This document shows, one piece after another, positions 2,939 through 26,033 of a DNA stretch of 26,160 nt (its first letter is position 1; each line of letters begins with the position of its first letter). The notes under the pieces were generated by a model. It had not been told where the DNA came from. It ran no database searches and saw only the letters and a list, made by a program, of their open reading frames with translations. The DNA lies in IMG/VR virus record IMGVR_UViG_3300037234_000173, positions 1 to 26,160 of that record; one strand, given 5' to 3'. The position numbers were made by a program, and so were the translations under genes. The DNA comes from a virus.

Positions 2939-3337
2939 CTAATCTCCGTATACGTTATATTCTACTGTAACCGGAATACTCAAGCTATTGTCACTCTGCA
3001 AAGGTGGCACTTGATATCCTAGTTTATTAAATTCCACCAGGGTGCTACCGTTCTGCAACGATAACCCCCTGGGGAACAATGAAATTACTTCATCGGCTTT
3101 TTCCATTGCAAGTATTATACCATATCCAACAGAAAAAACAACTGTGAACTGTGTGAATCCGGTATAGAAATTGCAATCGTTCACGCTTGCAGCAATTGTA
3201 GGAGCAGGTAAATGCGAAACTGCAAGGTAAGGTAGAGTGCTTTCGTTGTCCACTCCAGGCCATGCAATTGGTATAGACAGACCTCCTGCCGCCAAGTGGT
3301 CAAAGATTGCAATTGCTATGTCACTTTGTTTTGACAC
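2939..3337 (-). CDS. Tail terminator / completion protein (DUF4128, gpU-like)
   Basis: A 132-residue protein of the DUF4128 family, related to the lambda U tail terminator that caps the tail tube and joins it to the head. Family features seen are IPIAWPG near residue 22, the ADEVISLFPRG segment near residue 82, GSTLVEF, and a final strand IPVTVEYNVYG. The start codon is GTG at 3337, preceded by GGGAG at a good spacing. The first 17 bases overlap the end of the preceding gene, so the two are likely translationally coupled. Confidence 0.8.
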   Translation of the reverse strand: MSKQSDIAIAIFDHLAAGGLSIPIAWPGVDNESTLPYLAVSHLPAPTIAASVNDCNFYTGFTQFTVVFSVGYGIILAMEKADEVISLFPRGLSLQNGSTLVEFNKLGYQVPPLQSDNSLSIPVTVEYNVYGD

Positions 3338-3755
3338 TATTTATCTCCCTATTCAATTCTTTAAACGCAAGTCTTACCATTCCTTTTGGAGCTTGTTTGG
3401 AGAAACCGCCCTTGGTCTTTTCTGTTTCTGACTTGGTGGTAAACTCGCCATATTCAATAACTCGAATGGCTGGCAAGTTGTTATATAGGTAGTATACGCT
3501 ACCAATTGCCCCTCTTGCTATGTTGTTTACTTTTGAGGTAGTTCCAACACCAGTACTGTCAAATCCATGTGCGTAACCCAATGGCATAGTGTTGACACTA
3601 GCCGTCCAACCACCACGGTGAAAACCAGTATCAACAGGCGTTCCCATGATAATACGGCTATTAAGCTCAACCAAAGCAGCCCTGTTAACGTCCACAAGGT
3701 TCTTCGTGGTCTTCTTAGCCCACTTCTCAATGTCGATAACGAATGAGTCAGCCAT
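3321..3755 (-). CDS. HK97 gp10-like tail/neck completion protein
   Basis: A 144-residue protein with the pattern of HK97 gp10-like proteins: an N-terminal helix (WAKKTTKNLVDVNRAALVELNS), then TPVDTGFHRGGW, then a YYLYNNLPAIRVIEYGE segment, and a basic C-terminus. Such proteins sit at the head-tail interface or help finish the tail. The gene starts at ATG 3755, immediately after the TAA of the upstream gene, and overlaps the downstream gene by 17 bases. Family membership is judged from the TPVDTG...W and IEYGE motifs. Confidence 0.75.
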   Translation of the reverse strand: MADSFVIDIEKWAKKTTKNLVDVNRAALVELNSRIIMGTPVDTGFHRGGWTASVNTMPLGYAHGFDSTGVGTTSKVNNIARGAIGSVYYLYNNLPAIRVIEYGEFTTKSETEKTKGGFSKQAPKGMVRLAFKELNREINSVKTK

Positions 3756-8010: not shown

Positions 8011-8039
8011 ATTATGCCACTTTTATATTAATTTGTCAA
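8011..8039 (-). promoter_or_regulatory. Strong sigma-70 promoter for scaffold-coat-tail genes
   Basis: On the minus strand TTGACA (8039-8034), a 17-base spacer and CATAAT (8016-8011) give a near-consensus promoter. The start point would be near 8004, about 57 bases before the scaffold ATG. It lies next to the plus-strand cassette, so it re-starts late transcription beyond the inserted genes. Confidence 0.8.
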
Positions 8040-8072: not shown

Positions 8073-8101
8073 TTGACTGTGTATTACTTGTTTGGTAAGG
8101 T
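8073..8101 (+). promoter_or_regulatory. Candidate promoter of the methyltransferase-like gene
   Basis: TTGACT (8073-8078), 17-base spacer, TAAGGT (8096-8101). The -35 is good and the -10 is weak. Its placement, 44 bases before the plus-strand gene and back-to-back with the minus-strand promoter, supports it. Confidence 0.45.
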
Positions 8102-8144: not shown

Positions 8145-8708
8145 ATGAAAGTACTAATTGCATGTGAAGAGAGCCAAGCAGTATGCAAAGAGTTTAGAAA
8201 GCTAGGGCATGAAGCATATAGTTGTGATATTATGGAGTGTTCTGGTGGTCATCCAGAGTGGCATCTACAGCAAGATGTAACTGAGTTATTGAAAGATAAG
8301 TGGGATATGATAATTGCTTTTCCTCCTTGTACTGATTTGTGTGTTAGCGGTGCTAGGTGGTTCAAAGAAAAGATTGCAGATGGAAGGCAGCAAAGATCAA
8401 TAGAATTTTTCAATAAGTTTACCAAGGTAAATGTTCCGTTCGCTATAGAAAATCCAATAGGTATCATGAGTACTAATTACCGAAAACCAGACCAGATAGT
8501 CCAGCCTTGGCAGTTTGGGCATGGTGAAACAAAAGCAACTTGTTTATGGCTCAGTGGTTTACCAAAACTAGAACCAACTAATATTGTTGACGGCAGGGAG
8601 CCTAAAGTATGGAAGTTGCCTCCTAGCCCAGAAAGGGCGAAACTAAGATCAAAAACATTTCCAGGAATTGCAAAAGCAATGGCAGAACAATGGGGTGGTA
8701 AAATATAA
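8145..8708 (+). CDS. Cytosine-C5 methyltransferase-like phage protein
   Basis: A 187-residue protein of a widespread phage family often annotated as DNA cytosine methyltransferase. It opens MKVLIACEESQAVCKEFRKL with the following GHEAYSCDI, the cofactor-site region. It has PPC at residues 60-62, equivalent to the catalytic motif IV Cys, and ENP at 102-104, equivalent to motif VI. The C-terminal part has PWQFGHGETKATCLWL and FPGIAKAMAEQW, conserved in this family. It is much shorter than true C5 methyltransferases and lacks an obvious target recognition domain, so it may act on a nucleotide or small target, or need a partner. It lies on the opposite strand to its neighbours with its own leader (GGAGATAGT before ATG), like an independently expressed moron. 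Confidence 0.75.
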   Translation: MKVLIACEESQAVCKEFRKLGHEAYSCDIMECSGGHPEWHLQQDVTELLKDKWDMIIAFPPCTDLCVSGARWFKEKIADGRQQRSIEFFNKFTKVNVPFAIENPIGIMSTNYRKPDQIVQPWQFGHGETKATCLWLSGLPKLEPTNIVDGREPKVWKLPPSPERAKLRSKTFPGIAKAMAEQWGGKI

Positions 8709-15914: not shown

Positions 15915-15961
15915 TTCGTTCTCCGGTTAAGTTTTAAGTTGTCCCTCATTCCTATAACTAC

Positions 15962-15989
15962 ATAATAACATGTATAACAGTTAATGCAA
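15962..15989 (-). promoter_or_regulatory. Promoter for the 15914-14510 small genes
   Basis: On the minus strand TTGCAT (15989-15984), a 16-base spacer, TATTAT (15967-15962), with start near 15955. The spacer contains CTGTTATACAT, an 11-base sequence that recurs at 19137-19147; on the plus strand ATAACA is repeated at 15965 and 15974. Both suggest a bound regulator. Confidence 0.6.
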
Positions 15990-16200
15990 GCGTAATCGAC
16001 ATCCACCCAAAAATAAAACCAACCAACACCAAACGCTCACACAACACATTCTAAGCACGTTACAAGCTAACGCATACCAATAGACCAATTTACACTTTGC
16101 GTTGCGTGTTGGTAGCGTACAGCGTGTAGAAACGGTATTTCCATGTGTAAGCAATGGTGCTAGGTTTAGTCTGTCCAGAACAACCATTGTTTTGTCCAAA

Positions 16201-16510
16201 AGGTAGTTAAGGTAATTAAAAACCTATAGTCATATAGTAAATAGTAGTTAAATAATAATAATATAAATATAAATAAATAAGTAAATACATAGACTTAGGT
16301 TGGTTTGGATTGGCTTAACTACCTAGACCCCCCTCGCGTAAAAGTTAGGGTTGCCTGAACTTATACAAGAGAGCAAGTAAATGAGCTTTTGAATGCCCAC
16401 AATCCGATTTTAGGTATCTAACTATACCTAAATAGCAAATAAGCACGCACATACAAGTGCATATAACTACCTAACGCCTCTGGAATTAACTACTTTAACT
16501 ACTTTAAGTA
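16201..16510. repeat. Iteron-like TTAACTACYT repeats
   Basis: Copies by eye: 16201-16212 (inverted, AGGTAGTTAAGG), 16243-16252 (inverted, TAGTAGTTAA), 16314-16326 (CTTAACTACCTAG), 16463-16474 (ATAACTACCTAA), 16485-16497 (ATTAACTACTTTA) and 16494-16507 (TTTAACTACTTTAA). A weaker copy, CTAACTATACCTA, is at 16418-16430. The core is TTAACTACYT. The first two are inverted and flank the AT-rich stretch together with the third copy; the last two overlap in tandem. Confidence 0.55.
16411..16430. repeat. Inverted repeat TAGGTAT-6-ATACCTA
   Basis: Perfect 7-base arms (16411-16417 and 16424-16430) with a 6-base centre CTAACT. The size and symmetry are like an operator for a dimeric regulator. It overlaps the weak copy of the TTAACTACYT repeat. 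Confidence 0.45.
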
Positions 16511-16569
16511 CTATTTTGCTACTGTATTTGGTGATTATTTAGTATTCAATGGATTATTTTTGCGATTTG

Positions 16570-16578
16570 TGGTATAAT
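16570..16578 (+). promoter_or_regulatory. Extended -10 promoter for the HNH gene
   Basis: TGGTATAAT: a perfect -10 hexamer (16573-16578) with the TGN extension; no good -35 is visible. A start near 16585 gives a leader of about 89 bases containing GTTGG (16609-16613)/CCAAC (16623-16627), which can pair. Confidence 0.6.
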
Positions 16579-16673
16579 GAAGGAGTGGATAGACTTAGCG
16601 GTTGAAAAGTTGGATACTGTAGCCAACCTTCCACACTCACCCTACAGATAATCTCAATACAGAGAGGTTTCAA

Positions 16674-17201
16674 ATGGCAAAACTCACACAAGCACGACTC
16701 AAGGAAGTACTAAACTACGATAAAGAAACTGGTTTGTTCACTTGGATGGTAAGTAATTCGTGGTGCAGTGAAAAAGACACCGCTGGAACCAAAGAAAATA
16801 ATGGTTATATCCGTATAAGTATAGACGGGAATCGTTATGTTGCCCACAGGTTAGCATGGCTATATGTTAACGGTTATTTTCCAGAAAACCAAATCGACCA
16901 CATAGATAGAGCAAGAGACAATAATAAATGGGTAAATCTCCGTGAAGTTTCTACCCAGTGCAATATAAGAAACCGTGGGTTAAACTCAAACAATACGTCT
17001 GGAGTTGCTGGCGTTAATTTTGACATTACAAGTGACAAGTGGATTGCGAGGATAACGGTCAGTAGGCAAAAAAGGCAATTGGGAAGCTCTAAAGATTTTA
17101 TTGAAATGGTAGCACTTCGCTTGGCTGCCGAACAATGTGTCGGGTGGAGCGGTTGTGATAGTAGTAGTTCAGCATATCAATATATGCAGTCAATTAAATA
17201 A
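16674..17201 (+). CDS. HNH endonuclease with AP2 DNA-binding domain (homing type)
   Basis: A 175-residue protein. The N-terminal part has GYIRISIDGNRYVAHRLAWL (H58 R59), then the HNH core NQIDHID (D75, H76) and NKWVNLREVSTQCNIRN, with the conserved Asn residues. The second half (about 105-155) is an AP2-like three-strand plus helix domain: NTSGVAGVNFD, KWIARITV, and DFIEMVALRLAAEQ. This is the standard HNH-AP2 phage homing nuclease. It is on the plus strand between two minus-strand operons with its own promoter and AGAGAGG ribosome site, as expected for a free-standing selfish gene. Catalytic residues appear intact. Confidence 0.92.
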   Translation: MAKLTQARLKEVLNYDKETGLFTWMVSNSWCSEKDTAGTKENNGYIRISIDGNRYVAHRLAWLYVNGYFPENQIDHIDRARDNNKWVNLREVSTQCNIRNRGLNSNNTSGVAGVNFDITSDKWIARITVSRQKRQLGSSKDFIEMVALRLAAEQCVGWSGCDSSSSAYQYMQSIK

Positions 17202-20116: not shown

Positions 20117-22315
20117 CTAATCCTCTGGAATCCATACAAACTGCGTTGTTGCCCGAAACCCTCCAGGCTGTTGACCCATACAAATATCACCTTCTTTTAC
20201 ATATTGTTCAAGCTCCCTAGTCATTGCGCTACGTTCTAAATACTTTGGGAAATCATCACTGTAAAGTGCGTCAAACTTAGCGTGGAAATCTGCCCTGGAC
20301 ACTATGCCTTTTCCAATCAATTTAGCATATTCCTGTGCTTTGTTCTTGGATTTACTGGTAACAATTCCCTTCCCCTGCATGAAAACCTTTTCAATGGTAT
20401 CTTTGATCTCACGCATATATACTTGCTCACGCATGGCCACTTGATACTCGAACCATGGCATAATTGCCTTAACATCGCTCAACTCTATCACGTTACGCCC
20501 ATCCATCGCAACCCACGCGGTCAATCTTTTTTCAACACTCATACTGGTACGGCAAAGAAACTTACCAATACCATCTGTGGAATCGTATTTTTCTTTCAAT
20601 CCTATATCGTAATCCATAATGTAATTATACGCATCTTTCCTCCATGCTACTTGCCCTTCAAAGATATTACCAACCTTATGTAATATGGTTGCAATTGTTT
20701 GGTCACTAAAGCCCTTGGAAGCCTTCACAATGTCTTCTTGCGTAGCATCCGCACCAACTACCAGACCACCTTCAAAGCTGCTTCTAATGGCCTTCTCAGG
20801 GTTATAATCAAGGACATAATCAAACCGCCCTAGTGTGCCAATCTCCAATAGTTCTTGTGTGAGTTGCTTCTTGAGTTCTTTGAGCTGTGTTAACCAACAA
20901 ACAGGTATATTGGGATAGTTTACCGCAGCAACAGCCCCACCAGCTTTTCGTTTACCCGTTACTTCGTGTCCATCGTAACTGTCATTTAGAGCAGTTGCAA
21001 GGCTTGATCCTTGGTTCGCCATGGAACTATTGGCACTCAATTGGCGTAATGGTTCGGATGCTTCAGTTGTAAGCCATAGAAAACTACCCTGCGTTTCGTT
21101 TGCTTGGTTAAGAAAAGCCGTATCACCAGTGATATTACCAATTCCAGTGGTTAGCTTTTCAAACAGTATACCGCCCATTCCACCAGTGCAACCTGCGATC
21201 AGTTGTTCACGCAATTTTCGTAATGGATTCTTACTGGATAAATCCTTACCTGCACCAGAATGGCTACCACATAAACTGTATGTAACAACGGTTCTTGCGT
21301 GTCCTGGTGTGAGTACCTTTTGCCCGCATAAAACTTGCATTGCAGCTTCTATAGTAGCAAACGCAAAACCTGCAATTGGTTCAGTAACAGAATCTAACCA
21401 TTCGTCATATATACGTTTATACACATCTGGCGCACCCGCATACACCTCGTCCGTTGGAAATAATACCTGCTCACTCTCAACTTTATCTGGAGTATATACG
21501 CCAACCAAAGGCTCTAGTATTTGTTTTGTTTCATCCACTCCGATGTCATTAAAATCTCCAAGTGTAACTGGAAACTTTAATGTCTCGCCCGTTTTGTTCG
21601 CATGGTAAACACCACAACCTCCAACGTCTGGATATTTATCCTTTGGTTCGTCGTTATCAGCACATACAACGAGGTTTTGCCCTTTTAGCTCTTCACATAC
21701 ACGTTTCAAATTACCTGCGTTAAAAGCGATCACAACGGTTTTACCAGTGGCTTCTGCAATGGTGCAACCTGTTGCGTAACCTTCACAAACGTATATTGTG
21801 GTTGAAACCTGTTTAATGATGTAATAGGACGCTTTCATTTTTGTTCCGTATATAGGCTTTTTGAATCCGTCCTCGTATATGCGTTGGTATCCAACTAGCG
21901 ATTCATTATTGTAGATTGGCACAATAAGCTTGTTACCCTGAACTAAAGCACCAAACGGTTTGATGTTCTTTTTGGTTAAGTATGGATGTTCTGTTGCGAG
22001 TAGTAAAGTAGGTATTAACTCCTCAGCCTTGCGTTGTGCTTCTGCGTTCTTCTTCTCCTGTTCTTGTTGGGCAAGTTTGGCTAGCATTTTCCAATTCTCG
22101 TTAATCTCCGTGGACTCGCCTTCTTTACTGCACCATCTGTGTGTTTCATCCGTAACCCAATTGCCACACGTTACATAAGTATGTCCGTTTAGCTCTACGC
22201 CAGTATACCAACCGTTCTTAGATCGTGGCTTGTCTATGGTGCCTACACGGTGAATTACGCCGTCTGGTATAAACTGCTGTACCAGGATTCCAGCGTTTTG
22301 GAATGTTTGGTTCAT
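20117..22315 (-). CDS. TOPRIM primase-helicase
   Basis: A 732-residue replication protein. Residues 1-100 include a small beta domain and a charged helix. A TOPRIM domain follows at about 125-260: VCEG (E178), VVCADND (D220, D222) and DFND (D254, D257). The C-terminal 450 residues resemble the DUF3987-type helicase: the ATP loop GSHSGAGKD (350-358) and LWLTTEASEPLRQLS further on. The Lys-Asp in place of Lys-Ser/Thr is a variant of Walker A. It should make primers and unwind DNA at the fork. GGGGAACTAA precedes ATG 22315, and two tandem promoters lie upstream. Confidence 0.88.
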   Translation of the reverse strand: MNQTFQNAGILVQQFIPDGVIHRVGTIDKPRSKNGWYTGVELNGHTYVTCGNWVTDETHRWCSKEGESTEINENWKMLAKLAQQEQEKKNAEAQRKAEELIPTLLLATEHPYLTKKNIKPFGALVQGNKLIVPIYNNESLVGYQRIYEDGFKKPIYGTKMKASYYIIKQVSTTIYVCEGYATGCTIAEATGKTVVIAFNAGNLKRVCEELKGQNLVVCADNDEPKDKYPDVGGCGVYHANKTGETLKFPVTLGDFNDIGVDETKQILEPLVGVYTPDKVESEQVLFPTDEVYAGAPDVYKRIYDEWLDSVTEPIAGFAFATIEAAMQVLCGQKVLTPGHARTVVTYSLCGSHSGAGKDLSSKNPLRKLREQLIAGCTGGMGGILFEKLTTGIGNITGDTAFLNQANETQGSFLWLTTEASEPLRQLSANSSMANQGSSLATALNDSYDGHEVTGKRKAGGAVAAVNYPNIPVCWLTQLKELKKQLTQELLEIGTLGRFDYVLDYNPEKAIRSSFEGGLVVGADATQEDIVKASKGFSDQTIATILHKVGNIFEGQVAWRKDAYNYIMDYDIGLKEKYDSTDGIGKFLCRTSMSVEKRLTAWVAMDGRNVIELSDVKAIMPWFEYQVAMREQVYMREIKDTIEKVFMQGKGIVTSKSKNKAQEYAKLIGKGIVSRADFHAKFDALYSDDFPKYLERSAMTRELEQYVKEGDICMGQQPGGFRATTQFVWIPED

Positions 22316-22429: not shown

Positions 22430-22458
22430 TTGCAATGCTTTTTTGTCCGTGGTAGAAC
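22430..22458 (+). promoter_or_regulatory. Promoter for the plus-strand operon
   Basis: TTGCAA (22430-22435), 17-base spacer, TAGAAC (22453-22458). It shares the ten bases TTGCAATGCT with the minus-strand promoter at 19148-19176. The start near 22465 gives a 39-base leader to the first gene. Confidence 0.5.
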
Positions 22459-22503
22459 GGTGGTTAATGGATGTAAGACAACAGTTAAAAACGGGAGAGG
22501 ATG

Positions 22504-22764
22504 ATGAAACTATACCTAGAGCAAGAAGACGAAGAATACGAAGTCCACATTGAAGGTTGGGAGCAATGGTGCGAGGATAACGGTTTTGACGACCTAACAG
22601 GATATGTTGTCGACGAAGATAACGAGGATATGCCACTTGCTTTTTTCCAAGAAATATTGCAAGCTAATGTGAATAAGGTTGAAGAGAAATTAAATGAAGC
22701 TAAAGAAGAATATGATGAACAAGAACGAACGGAGGCTATGCTTGGCTATGTCGAACAATACTAA
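22504..22764 (+). CDS. 86-residue acidic protein, function unknown
   Basis: ATG 22504 (second of two tandem ATG) is placed slightly better against the GGGAGAGG site than 22501. The protein is very acidic: MKLYLEQEDEEYEVHIEGWE near the start, many Glu/Asp throughout, and a helix at the end (EKLNEAKEEYDEQER). Small acidic phage proteins can mimic DNA or bind basic host proteins; here that is inference only. It is the first gene of the plus-strand operon and overlaps the next. Confidence 0.65.
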   Translation: MKLYLEQEDEEYEVHIEGWEQWCEDNGFDDLTGYVVDEDNEDMPLAFFQEILQANVNKVEEKLNEAKEEYDEQERTEAMLGYVEQY

Positions 22765-23167
22765 GAACAAACTAACAACACGCATCATTATGGACGCAAC
22801 AGGACTAAGCTATAGTGCTGCATATAAGCGTAAACTGAAGTACGATGCTAAAGAGGTAACACGAAAAGAGGCATTGTGTGGAAAGAAAGAGTTTAACAAG
22901 CGTGTAGCCATTTTAAAAGACGGTACAACCTGGACGGCACCAGAACTTGCAGACTATAAAGGTTGCCAGCTTGCCCACGCATACCGTAAGATAACAGAAT
23001 ACAATGAAGAGGGTTTATCTGAAGAAAACCTGTTAAAGGCTACCACAAAAAGACCAGTTGCGATTCCGCAGCACCATATACCAATGCCAACCTCCAGTAA
23101 GGAACGTTTGTATAATTTGGATAAAATACCACAGCCTAGTGCTTGGGAACGGGAGAATATGCTATGA
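22748..23167 (+). CDS. Double helix-turn-helix protein
   Basis: A 139-residue basic protein beginning MSNNTKNKLTTRIIMDATGL. Two helix-turn-helix-like segments are visible: one at about 9-32 (TTRIIMDATGLSYSAAYKRK) and one at about 63-90 (TWTAPELADYKGCQLAHAYR). The Pro-rich C-terminus follows (AIPQHHIPMP). TTG at 22742 has better spacing to GGAGG and may be the true start; ATG 22748 is kept as default. It may be a regulator of the operon or an origin-binding protein. The stop overlaps the next ATG (ATGA). Confidence 0.65.
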   Translation: MSNNTKNKLTTRIIMDATGLSYSAAYKRKLKYDAKEVTRKEALCGKKEFNKRVAILKDGTTWTAPELADYKGCQLAHAYRKITEYNEEGLSEENLLKATTKRPVAIPQHHIPMPTSSKERLYNLDKIPQPSAWERENML

Positions 23168-23673
23168 TAACCGTTAGAAAAATAACAGACTTCGCCTTGA
23201 TGCAAGAGATTATAGAGTTTTGCACAGACGTAAAAGAGTCTAAATATTCAGAGTTTGAGGCATACAGAAACGAGCATTCACTTATACGTGTCCAGTTTTT
23301 CCTTATCAAGATGACCATACCAACATTTGTTTCTGTACATCTGGTAAGACACAGCCAAACGGGGCAATTTCACTTTGCGTATTCAAACCGTGAAGATCGT
23401 GGAGGCAAGGATAAAAAGGTTGACAGAAACACTCCAATCAACCACTGTATGGTTTTAAACGCAAAGCACTTGATAGACATGTCGCGGTATAGGCTTTGCA
23501 CGAAGGCGTCAGTTGAAACACATACAGTTTGGTCTGATATAAAGATTGAAGTTGAGAAGGTAGATAAAGAGCTGTCAAAAAGAATGGTTCCAAATTGCTG
23601 GTATCGTGGTGGGGTTTGTCCAGAACCAAAAAGCTGTGGAGTCAACAAACTATACACGGAGCCAACCAAATGA
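23164..23673 (+). CDS. ThyX-like phage protein (uncertain function)
   Basis: A 169-residue protein starting MITVRKITDFALMQEIIEFC. The segment MTIPTFVSVHLVRHSQTGQF (50-69) resembles the flavin-dependent thymidylate synthase region, with RHS in place of the RHR start of the ThyX signature. A helical DMSRYRLCTKASVETHTVWS (105-124) follows. The end has a Cys cluster, CWYRGGVCPEPKSC. It is shorter than ThyX and the nucleotide-binding motif is altered, so thymidylate synthesis is not assured. ATG overlaps the upstream stop (ATGA). Confidence 0.6.
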   Translation: MITVRKITDFALMQEIIEFCTDVKESKYSEFEAYRNEHSLIRVQFFLIKMTIPTFVSVHLVRHSQTGQFHFAYSNREDRGGKDKKVDRNTPINHCMVLNAKHLIDMSRYRLCTKASVETHTVWSDIKIEVEKVDKELSKRMVPNCWYRGGVCPEPKSCGVNKLYTEPTK

Positions 23674-23927
23674 AAGAAACAAGACCAACACTAGAGGCAA
23701 CCCGTAAATACCTTAAAATATGCCCTGTGATGCAAGGAGCGCAGAACCTACGCATTACACGCAAAGCATGGAAAATTGCCTGTGAACGTGCGCAGGTAAG
23801 GCCGCAGTTTGGTTTTGGAAGTGTTAGTAACCAATATTGTGCTGTCTGCTTGGGCAAGAAAATGCCAAAGGGTATTGAGTTTATCACACAAAAAGAGCTT
23901 GCGGAGTTTCGGAGGGTTCGGGGATGA
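23670..23927 (+). CDS. 85-residue basic protein, function unknown
   Basis: ATG 23670 overlaps the TGA of the ThyX-like gene (ATGA). The protein begins MKETRPTLEATRKYLKICPV and is basic, with a CAVC pair in the C-terminal half and a helical end (TQKELAEFRRVRG). It may be a small nucleic-acid-binding protein. No family is recognised. Confidence 0.65.
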   Translation: MKETRPTLEATRKYLKICPVMQGAQNLRITRKAWKIACERAQVRPQFGFGSVSNQYCAVCLGKKMPKGIEFITQKELAEFRRVRG

Positions 23928-24154
23928 AAGAAGCTATGATTGTTATTGGATTTGGGCTTTGTTTTTTGTATGGTGTTTTTATTGGTGCAGATGCCACAGA
24001 TAAAAAAGCAGGAAGTATTATCAACGAAAAACTTGCAACCAAACAACTTCAACTTAAAATTGCAACAGAACGCAACAAAGAGTGCCGTTACACGTTAAAA
24101 TTAATACTTGATGAGTTGGATTATATTCAACCACGGGCTATAACGGTGGATTAA
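23924..24154 (+). CDS. 76-residue single-span membrane protein
   Basis: ATG overlaps the upstream TGA (ATGA). Residues 5-22 (MIVIGFGLCFLYGVFIGA) are a clear transmembrane segment or uncleaved signal anchor; the rest is a charged helix (KKAGSIINEKLATKQLQLKI) likely outside the cytoplasm or coiled. The layout is like a small Rz-type protein, but it sits among replication genes and there is no lysis context. Function unknown. Confidence 0.65.
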   Translation: MKEAMIVIGFGLCFLYGVFIGADATDKKAGSIINEKLATKQLQLKIATERNKECRYTLKLILDELDYIQPRAITVD

Positions 24155-24385
24155 ATGAACGATTGCCAACACAACCAAAACAACTACTGCACCAACTTTA
24201 AACGTGCAAAACCACCACCAGGAGTATGCAAAAAGTGCAAGTTCTACCAAAGAGCGTACAGTAAGCAAAAGAAGTGTGAAGCGTATATTTTCGACGATGA
24301 GTGGTGTACCATGACTGACACAAAGTGGCACCACTGGCGAGAACGCAATACCAATAATTGTGCAAGATGCGAATGGTGCAAATAA
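24155..24385 (+). CDS. 76-residue Cys-rich protein
   Basis: ATG 24155 lies directly after the upstream TAA, with GGTGG upstream. It starts MNDCQHNQNNYCTNFKRAKP and contains nine Cys, including CKKC and a final CARCEWC, plus many Trp, Lys and Asn. It is likely a zinc-binding protein with two sites. No family is recognised. It is the last gene before the putative small RNA unit. Confidence 0.7.
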   Translation: MNDCQHNQNNYCTNFKRAKPPPGVCKKCKFYQRAYSKQKKCEAYIFDDEWCTMTDTKWHHWRERNTNNCARCEWCK

Positions 24386-24388
24386 GTG

Positions 24389-24417
24389 TTGACACCGTAT
24401 TACGAACATAGTAAGTT
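24389..24417 (+). promoter_or_regulatory. Promoter of the putative small RNA
   Basis: TTGACA (24389-24394), a perfect -35, 17-base spacer, TAAGTT (24412-24417). It begins four bases after the upstream gene's stop, and no gene follows for 225 bases. Confidence 0.6.
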
Positions 24418-24423
24418 GTTGTT

Positions 24424-24571
24424 TCGGGGTTTTCATAAAGTGACTGAGTGAAACTGATAGTTGGCTAGAATGCTAGTGAATCCAGTGCGAGGACTGCCCC
24501 ACCTCGATCCTTTAAAAATCATGCTGTGTGTGGTGGTGCATGGCTAAATAATTCTAGCAACCACCTTTTTT
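24424..24571 (+). ncRNA. Putative structured small RNA (~148 bases)
   Basis: The stretch has no open frame with a ribosome site, but is bounded by a promoter on the left and an intrinsic terminator on the right. Possible structure: GCTAGAAT (24464-24471) pairs with ATTCTAGC (24551-24558), enclosing the hairpin CGAGG/CCTCG (24488-24492 and 24502-24506) and the hairpin CATGC/GCATG (24520-24524 and 24538-24542). The long-range helix would compete with the terminator stem. Not recognised as a known RNA class; not a tRNA. Existence and ends are inferred. Confidence 0.5.
24532..24571 (+). terminator. Terminator of the small RNA unit
   Basis: GGTGGT (24532-24537) pairs with ACCACC (24560-24565), followed by six T (24566-24571). 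An inner GC/GC pair with one bulge extends the stem. The next promoter starts only one base later. Confidence 0.65.
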
Positions 24572-24572
24572 C

Positions 24573-24601
24573 TTGACACTACCAAAACCAATTGGTAGAA
24601 G
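24573..24601 (+). promoter_or_regulatory. Promoter of the recombination genes with inverted repeat
   Basis: TTGACA (24573-24578), 17-base spacer, TAGAAG (24596-24601). An inverted repeat CTACCAA (24579-24585) / TTGGTAG (24592-24598) fills the spacer and touches the -10, and AGTTATACA (24603-24611) follows. The repeat could be an operator. Confidence 0.65.
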
Positions 24602-24641
24602 TAGTTATACAAACAAGCAGCAAACCTTAAAGGAGACAACA

Positions 24642-24842
24642 ATGAACAGAGAAGAATGCACCAAACAACTAAAAAAACTTGCAGATGGTAGCTACTACGC
24701 TTTAATGCATGAGTTTGATTACCACACCACAGGTGAAGAAACAGTAACATACAGAGTTTATTTACACCCACACCACGGTATTAGCCATATTGGATGGGAA
24801 GAAGCATTAAGTAGTTTAAAATTTAAGTTGGAGGAATACTAG
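24642..24842 (+). CDS. 66-residue protein upstream of the Sak4-like gene
   Basis: ATG 24642 has AAGGAGACAACA upstream. The protein begins MNREECTKQLKKLADGSYYA and is strand-rich in the middle (HTTGEETVTYRVYLHPHHG) with a helical end (WEEALSSLKFKLEEY). Its stop lies one base before the next ATG, so it is co-translated with the Sak4-like gene. No family is recognised. Confidence 0.65.
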   Translation: MNREECTKQLKKLADGSYYALMHEFDYHTTGEETVTYRVYLHPHHGISHIGWEEALSSLKFKLEEY

Positions 24843-24843
24843 G

Positions 24844-25527
24844 ATGGAAATCAAACCACTACAAGAAACACTAACAGGATACGGTAATTTCCTGTTATAT
24901 GGAGCATCAGGAGCAGGGAAAACCCGTTCAATTGCAACCATGCCAAAAGGTACGGTTTTACTTTCGGCGGATAGCGGTAGACGTACACTGAAAGATATTG
25001 CGCCACAATTGCAAGTTGGTGTGATTGAAACGCTTGACGATTTACGCGACTCCTTAAAGCTGATAAAGGATTTCAAGTATGTAGTAATTGACGATCTCAC
25101 AGTAATTTCAAAAGTTGTGTTGAACGATGAAAAGTCCAAAACAAAGGATGGGCGACAAGCGTACATGAAGATGCAAGAGGTTGTGGATAAAATCATCCAA
25201 TCTTTCTTTGATCTTCCGCAGACTGTAATTTTCGTTGCACAGGAAGAACGTGTTAACCAAGAAGATGCTGGTTTATTTGATTACGTTTATTGTCCATCAG
25301 TACCGGGCAAGAAGTTTTCAGCAAGTATCCCGTATTTGTTTGATTATGTTTTCGCCATGAGAACAAAAAACGAGGAAGTGGATACCAAGCAAGTAACAAA
25401 AAGACGTTTCCAAACAGCTCTAAATGGTCTTGGTGACTATCTAGCAAAAAGCAGAACAGAACGATTAAGCCTTTATGAAGAAGCCAATTGGGTTTCAATT
25501 TTCAATAAATTAAACGACGGAGAATAA
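24844..25527 (+). CDS. Sak4-like RecA-fold ATPase (single-strand annealing/recombination)
   Basis: A 227-residue ATPase of the phage AAA_24/Sak4 type. Walker A YGASGAGKT is at residues 19-27; Walker B VVIDD at 80-84; DLPQTVIFVAQEERVNQED gives the sensor strand; FQTALNGLG lies near the end. Proteins of this family help anneal single strands and work with the SSB encoded next door. GGAGG is nine bases upstream, inside the end of the upstream gene. All key residues are present. Confidence 0.85.
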   Translation: MEIKPLQETLTGYGNFLLYGASGAGKTRSIATMPKGTVLLSADSGRRTLKDIAPQLQVGVIETLDDLRDSLKLIKDFKYVVIDDLTVISKVVLNDEKSKTKDGRQAYMKMQEVVDKIIQSFFDLPQTVIFVAQEERVNQEDAGLFDYVYCPSVPGKKFSASIPYLFDYVFAMRTKNEEVDTKQVTKRRFQTALNGLGDYLAKSRTERLSLYEEANWVSIFNKLNDGE

Positions 25528-25529
25528 AA

Positions 25530-25988
25530 ATGGCAATTATTAATGTAGATTTAGATGGTGTTGAAGCAGGAATGGGCGGTAACGGTTTATTAGCACCTGG
25601 AACCTATCCATGCCGGATTGTAAAGACTGAGGCAAAGCGCAACAGCAAGAACACTGGAAACGTGCTTGTTATTGAGTTTGAGACTAACGATGGAACAATT
25701 GTAAAAGATTGGATTTCCTACGAACACGAAAGCGAAAAAGCACAAAAGATTGGTCGTGGACAATTGAAGTTGTTGCTTGAGTGTGTTGGTAAAACGTCAA
25801 ACCAACTTGTGAAAGGCACTGAGATTATGCATGGTATACCAATGTCAATCAGCGTTGTGCAAGAGGATTCCACATCGTTGAAAGATGATGGTACACCTTA
25901 TAAAAACAATGTTGTTAAAAAGTATATGCCAAGCGGTCAAGCAGCAAGCGGAAACAATCCACCAATGCCAGAACAGCAAGGCTGGTAA
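25530..25988 (+). CDS. DUF669-family single-strand DNA-binding protein
   Basis: A 152-residue protein beginning MAIINVDLDGVEAGMGGNGL, with APGTYPCRIVKTEAKRNSKN and VLVIEFETNDGTIVKDWISY (around 48-67), the OB-like core of DUF669 proteins. The C-terminal tail is disordered and Gly/Pro/Gln-rich (GQAASGNNPPMPEQQGW) as in SSBs. DUF669 proteins occur beside Sak4 and RecB-type nuclease genes, exactly as here. GGAG lies upstream of ATG. Confidence 0.85.
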   Translation: MAIINVDLDGVEAGMGGNGLLAPGTYPCRIVKTEAKRNSKNTGNVLVIEFETNDGTIVKDWISYEHESEKAQKIGRGQLKLLLECVGKTSNQLVKGTEIMHGIPMSISVVQEDSTSLKDDGTPYKNNVVKKYMPSGQAASGNNPPMPEQQGW

Positions 25989-25999
25989 ATAAACCAAAC

Positions 26000-26033
26000 A
26001 AGCCCACCGTAAAAACGTGGGCTTTACTTTTTT
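26000..26033 (+). terminator. Terminator after the SSB gene
   Basis: AAGCCCAC (26000-26007) and GTGGGCTT (26017-26024), a perfect 8-bp stem with a 9-base loop, then TACTTTTTT. It would lower expression of the nuclease gene that follows, keeping SSB abundant. Confidence 0.85.

Follow-up and report, generated by a model that had tools for sequence, protein, structure and literature searches.

The locus and its genes

The window analysed here, a stretch of 26,160 bases, comprises the whole of a virus record that IMG/VR lists as linear and as a probable fragment. The structural genes lie on the minus strand in the left part of the window, with a terminase that is 63% identical to a Vibrio breoganii phage terminase, and the early region runs on the plus strand from 22501 onwards. 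In this early region, 24386-24641 is the sole large gap and holds no convincing gene; the ORFs flanking it, up to 25988, overlap or are spaced by 0-2 bases. The gap separates the last gene of an upstream early operon from a cassette that encodes a Sak4-like annealing protein and a single-stranded DNA-binding (SSB) protein, and the features considered below are collected in Table 1. To the right, 24573-26033 reads as a module composed of a promoter, three genes and a terminator, with clear ribosome-binding sites at the genes starting at 24642 and 24844. Elsewhere in the window, 15915-16673 (approximately 760 bases) likewise has no convincing gene, contains a run rich in A+T together with ACTAC/CTACCTA-like words that recur, and is followed by an ORF (16674-17201) that has, judged by eye, a homing-endonuclease-type look.

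Table 1. Features in and around the early-region gap (P, promoter or promoter-like site, named by its first position)
Feature	Position	Strand	Remarks
Primase	20117-22315	-	
Cys-rich 76-aa protein (ORF 24155), last gene of upstream early operon	24155..24385	+	ends in TAA
Candidate promoter P24389	24389..24417	+	TTGACA - 17 nt - TAAGTT, without extended -10; sigma-70 scoring, rank 9 on plus strand of window
Hypothetical transcript of the unit, ~148 nt	24424..24571	+	start placed from the -10 of P24389
5' arm of long-range helix (GCTAGAAT)	24464..24471	+	complement at 24551-24558
Open 25-codon ATG frame	24470..24547	+	no ribosome-binding site; stop within terminator loop
Putative intrinsic terminator	24532..24571	+	GGTGGT...ACCACC stem, then T6; hairpin of -10.2 kcal/mol adjoining T6
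Putative Sak4 cassette promoter P24573	24573..24601	+	TTGACA - 17 nt ending TGG - TAGAAG; top plus-strand score of window
Operator-like inverted repeat	24579..24598	.	CTACCAA-6 nt-TTGGTAG, between -35 and -10 of P24573
First cassette gene, 66 aa (ORF 24642)	24642..24842	+	clear Shine-Dalgarno AAGGAG; no homologue found
Sak4-like single-strand annealing ATPase	24844..25527	+	PHROG 124, E 9.7e-36; Pfam AAA_24
Single-stranded DNA-binding protein-like	25530..25988	+	PHROGs 2300, 6015, 378
Terminator-like hairpin plus T6 closing the cassette	~25999..26033	+	

Terminator and promoter-like sites

An earlier, sequence-only reading had taken 24386-24572 (hereafter, the unit) as a geneless promoter-terminator unit that would encode a phage small RNA and act as a switch. 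Its description of the right end holds in full: a GC-rich stem, formed by GGTGGT (24532-24537) and ACCACC (24560-24565), directly abuts six T at 24566-24571, and a single C separates these from the TTGACA of the next promoter. This terminator is well supported by the sequence and exceeds chance, since the plus strand has 14 T6 runs and no other is adjoined by a hairpin of -10 kcal/mol (the next best reaches -5.0), and such hairpin-T6 sites are expected 0.25 times per 26-kb strand in Markov sequence. A Rho-independent terminator with a U tail, as usually demanded of a small RNA, is thus present in the form of 24532-24571.

The promoter next to it, P24573, is also well supported as such in the sequence, with a score of 12.0, the highest of any plus-strand site in the whole window; this and the other promoter scores come from a simple sigma-70 model. 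The pattern TTGACA-N14-TGGTANAA, allowing up to two mismatches, occurs at three places in the window, namely 8039(-), 22430(+) and 24573(+), all of them intergenic and each heading an operon. As 1.6 occurrences are already expected by chance against the three found, the weight of the pattern rests on these positions. The three sites (8012-8039 on the minus strand, 22430-22458 and 24573-24601 on the plus strand) are alike in their TTGACA-like -35, their 17-nt spacing and their -10 extended by TGG, and this is probably the main promoter type of the phage.

P24389 does not belong to that class. A perfect TTGACA is present at 24389-24394, as the sequence-only reading had it, but it starts three bases after the TAA of the preceding gene and not four. 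With nine of the 12 consensus bases and a poor -10 (TAAGTT) that lacks a TG, P24389 would be a weak candidate and the weaker of the two promoters of the unit, a moderate match whose score of 10.1 ranks ninth on the plus strand; chance alone would give 0.11 sites of at least that score per 255 nt. It was absent from the output of an automated promoter scan. A further promoter-like site on the plus strand (8073-8101, TTGACT-17-TAAGGT) precedes the lone plus-strand gene at 8145-8708, and both sites contain GTATTAC and TAAG-T in register. A promoter family made up of the two was rejected, because their 19/29 similarity is reached by arbitrary 29-mers somewhere in the window; the pattern that links them was fitted to those same two sites, and their likeness counts only as a hint.

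On the opposite strand, 24551-24579 carries a promoter-like GTGTCA-17-TGC-TAGAAT, the fourth best of the minus strand, which overlaps P24573 and, if used, would produce RNA antisense to both the unit and ORF 24155.

Interior of the unit and its relatives

Does the interior look like an RNA that has evolved as such? It has no coding, structural or conservation signal and shows no sign of it, and the minimum free energy of the unit equals that of its shuffles (z 0.18 and -0.02). The long-range helix that had been proposed to compete with the terminator does exist as an 8-bp complement, but in the transcript predicted for 24424-24571 it pairs with a probability of 0.00-0.01, versus approximately 0.47 for the terminator stem. 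A complementary run of at least 8 appears in 33 of 500 shuffles (6.6%), and the best duplex between upstream and terminator segments is equalled in 8.4% of them. Near-even competition (0.37 for the helix versus 0.42 for the terminator) is seen only when an arbitrary fragment beginning at 24455 is folded. On the transcript 24424-24571 there are no mutually exclusive folds of similar stability, the helix staying at a probability of 0.01 or less, and the switch reading is not supported.

That the unit belongs to no recognised RNA class was borne out by Rfam, which gave no match at the gathering score and, in a permissive search, only eukaryotic long non-coding RNA noise; ARAGORN found no tRNA or tmRNA in it. 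The statement that it contains no translatable frame is nearly right: a 25-codon ATG frame at 24470-24547 is open, but with no Shine-Dalgarno-like site ahead of it; this frame has no match in phages.

No DNA homologue of the unit was found in any search run: the whole unit against phages returned only fragments of approximately 40 bases at E values up to 10, plasmids gave 34 bases at an E value of 0.8, and a 19-mer of the unit had no match in genomes. An exact 17-mer (GAGGACTGCCCCACCTC) occurs at nine loci in viral contigs and was discarded, none of these loci having the flanks of the unit or window-like surroundings. Searches with ORF 24155, an alignment of it, ORF 24642 and the primase brought no further useful relative, and the unit is absent from every locus retrieved through terminase or Sak4. 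In the V. breoganii phages related by terminase (one examined) the early region differs, and upstream of Sak4 in 81 loci no hairpin plus T run followed by a TTGACA-type -35 was seen.

The nearest loci by Sak4 with enough upstream sequence are L094 (51% identical) and L002 (47%). Both have the order minus-strand primase, small minus-strand gene, divergent intergenic region (146 or 192 bases), plus-strand gene and Sak4, where the small gene, of 58-66 codons, is ribbon-helix-helix-like (named by eye). Both retain a TTGACA region in front of their Sak4 genes: P24573 has a 13-base identity, TTTTTTCTTGACA, in common with L094 (3532-3544) and a 12-base identity, TTGACACTACCA, with L002 (850-861), and L002 contains a second TTGACA-17-TAAATA at 903-931 with TGG ahead of the -10. 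In L094 a T run precedes the TTGACA as well, but no strong hairpin lies ahead of that T run; for this reason, the T6 of the window may belong partly to the promoter and serve P24573 as an upstream AT-rich element, besides its role in the terminator. The sequence-only reading had named the lack of a unit at this position in relatives as evidence against itself, and neither of these two usable relatives has a promoter-terminator unit there. Conserved structure or sequence, which would argue for a small RNA, was thus seen neither in the two relatives nor in the fold (z about 0).

A probable operon boundary and its alternatives

Taken together, these sequence features make it fairly probable that the geneless stretch is an ordinary operon boundary within a tailed phage's early region. 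The upstream operon would be transcribed from near P22430, through the ORFs at 22501-24385, as far as the terminator at 24532-24571; P24573, with its operator-like palindrome between -35 and -10, would then start the Sak4/SSB recombination cassette, whose transcription would end at its own terminator (~25999-26033). The terminator would shield the separately controlled cassette from upstream read-through, and the TTGACA at 24389 would have arisen by chance within a long 3' untranslated stretch, or else be a weak secondary promoter which, if it fired, would give a short terminated RNA. The analysis shows the elements in the sequence, how they score against chance and which genes flank them; activity of P24573 and of the terminator in the cell, like the insulating role of the latter, is inferred. 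Such a boundary consists of a terminator that follows the last gene and a promoter that precedes the next operon; both are found here in the sequence, and a plain boundary accounts for the two. In tailed phages, the ordinary arrangement is that a hairpin and T run follow the last gene of one operon and a sigma-70-type promoter with an operator-like repeat serves the next; unlike it, the window has approximately 180 untranslated bases before the terminator, opening with a perfect TTGACA. This is what speaks against the boundary: the 3' untranslated stretch is long given how compact the phage is, and the account leaves it to coincidence that a perfect TTGACA, in a site with a score expected about 0.1 times per gap, lies three bases past the stop. 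The value of this reading is mostly one of annotation, in that it would set a terminator and a promoter between the early operon and the Sak4/SSB recombination genes of an uncultivated phage.

What could the leftover long untranslated stretch and moderate promoter match be? They could represent a small RNA, a scar left by a gene since lost, or nothing. A phage small RNA in its own right, transcribed from P24389, ending at 24571 after ~148 nt and base-pairing with phage or host messages, would fit the promoter-like site, geneless stretch and terminator, which stand in the right order and spacing, as well as the stem plus U tail that a released small RNA needs and the resemblance of P24389 to the site at 8073. 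However, the -10 is poor and lacks a TG, the likeness to 8073 is within background, and excess folding, an Rfam match, a homologue and a counterpart in L094 or L002 are all wanting, so this reading is rather unlikely. That P24389 is active and yields an unclassified ~148-nt RNA, with no known relative, where the early operon meets the recombination operon is a touch more doubtful still; if true, phage RNAs would gain an unclassified member, though no open question hinges on it. Phage-encoded small RNAs include VpdS of VP882 and OOP of lambda (reviewed in PMC12197685). The unit resembles them in being a short geneless stretch between promoter-like and terminator signals; it differs in being known from sequence only and in lacking conservation in relatives and, unlike OOP, it is not antisense to a neighbouring gene.

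In the leader of the lambda late promoter pR', a promoter, a short RNA and a terminator are followed by genes, and the terminator is read through with the antiterminator Q. The same order of promoter, approximately 150 nt with no gene, terminator and genes is seen in the window, where a phage antiterminator would open the terminator and polymerase would enter the Sak4 cassette (for the mechanism of Q, see PMC7171158). Nevertheless, the cassette has a stronger promoter of its own right after the terminator, and the early ORFs at 22501-24385, within a window that is a fragment, match no antiterminator in Pfam or PHROGs, with no Q-family protein among those tested; a leader of this type is very improbable. 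Scarcely credible is an attenuator linked to translation, in which ribosomes on the frame 24470-24547 would occupy the terminator's left arm and permit read-through: the stop codon of the frame does lie inside the terminator loop, but frames of 25 codons are common by chance, and this one has no homologue and, unlike genes 24642 and 24844, no ribosome-binding site. Somewhat less improbable than either, if still a poor prospect, is that the interior is what a lost gene left behind, or the scar of a rearrangement. L094 and L002 carry the ribbon-helix-helix-like gene on the other strand to the left of the Sak4 promoter, with a length of 177-201 nt versus 187 nt for the gap; against this, a hidden remnant of such a repressor gene was sought in the interior and rejected, no frame being similar to those proteins (best match of 10 residues, with an E value of 0.2 against the unit alone). 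Next to that gene and beside the primase, L094 has a homologue of ORF 24155 (3097-3351 on the minus strand, 31% over 64 aa), in the opposite orientation to that in the window, which points to local rearrangement within the early region.
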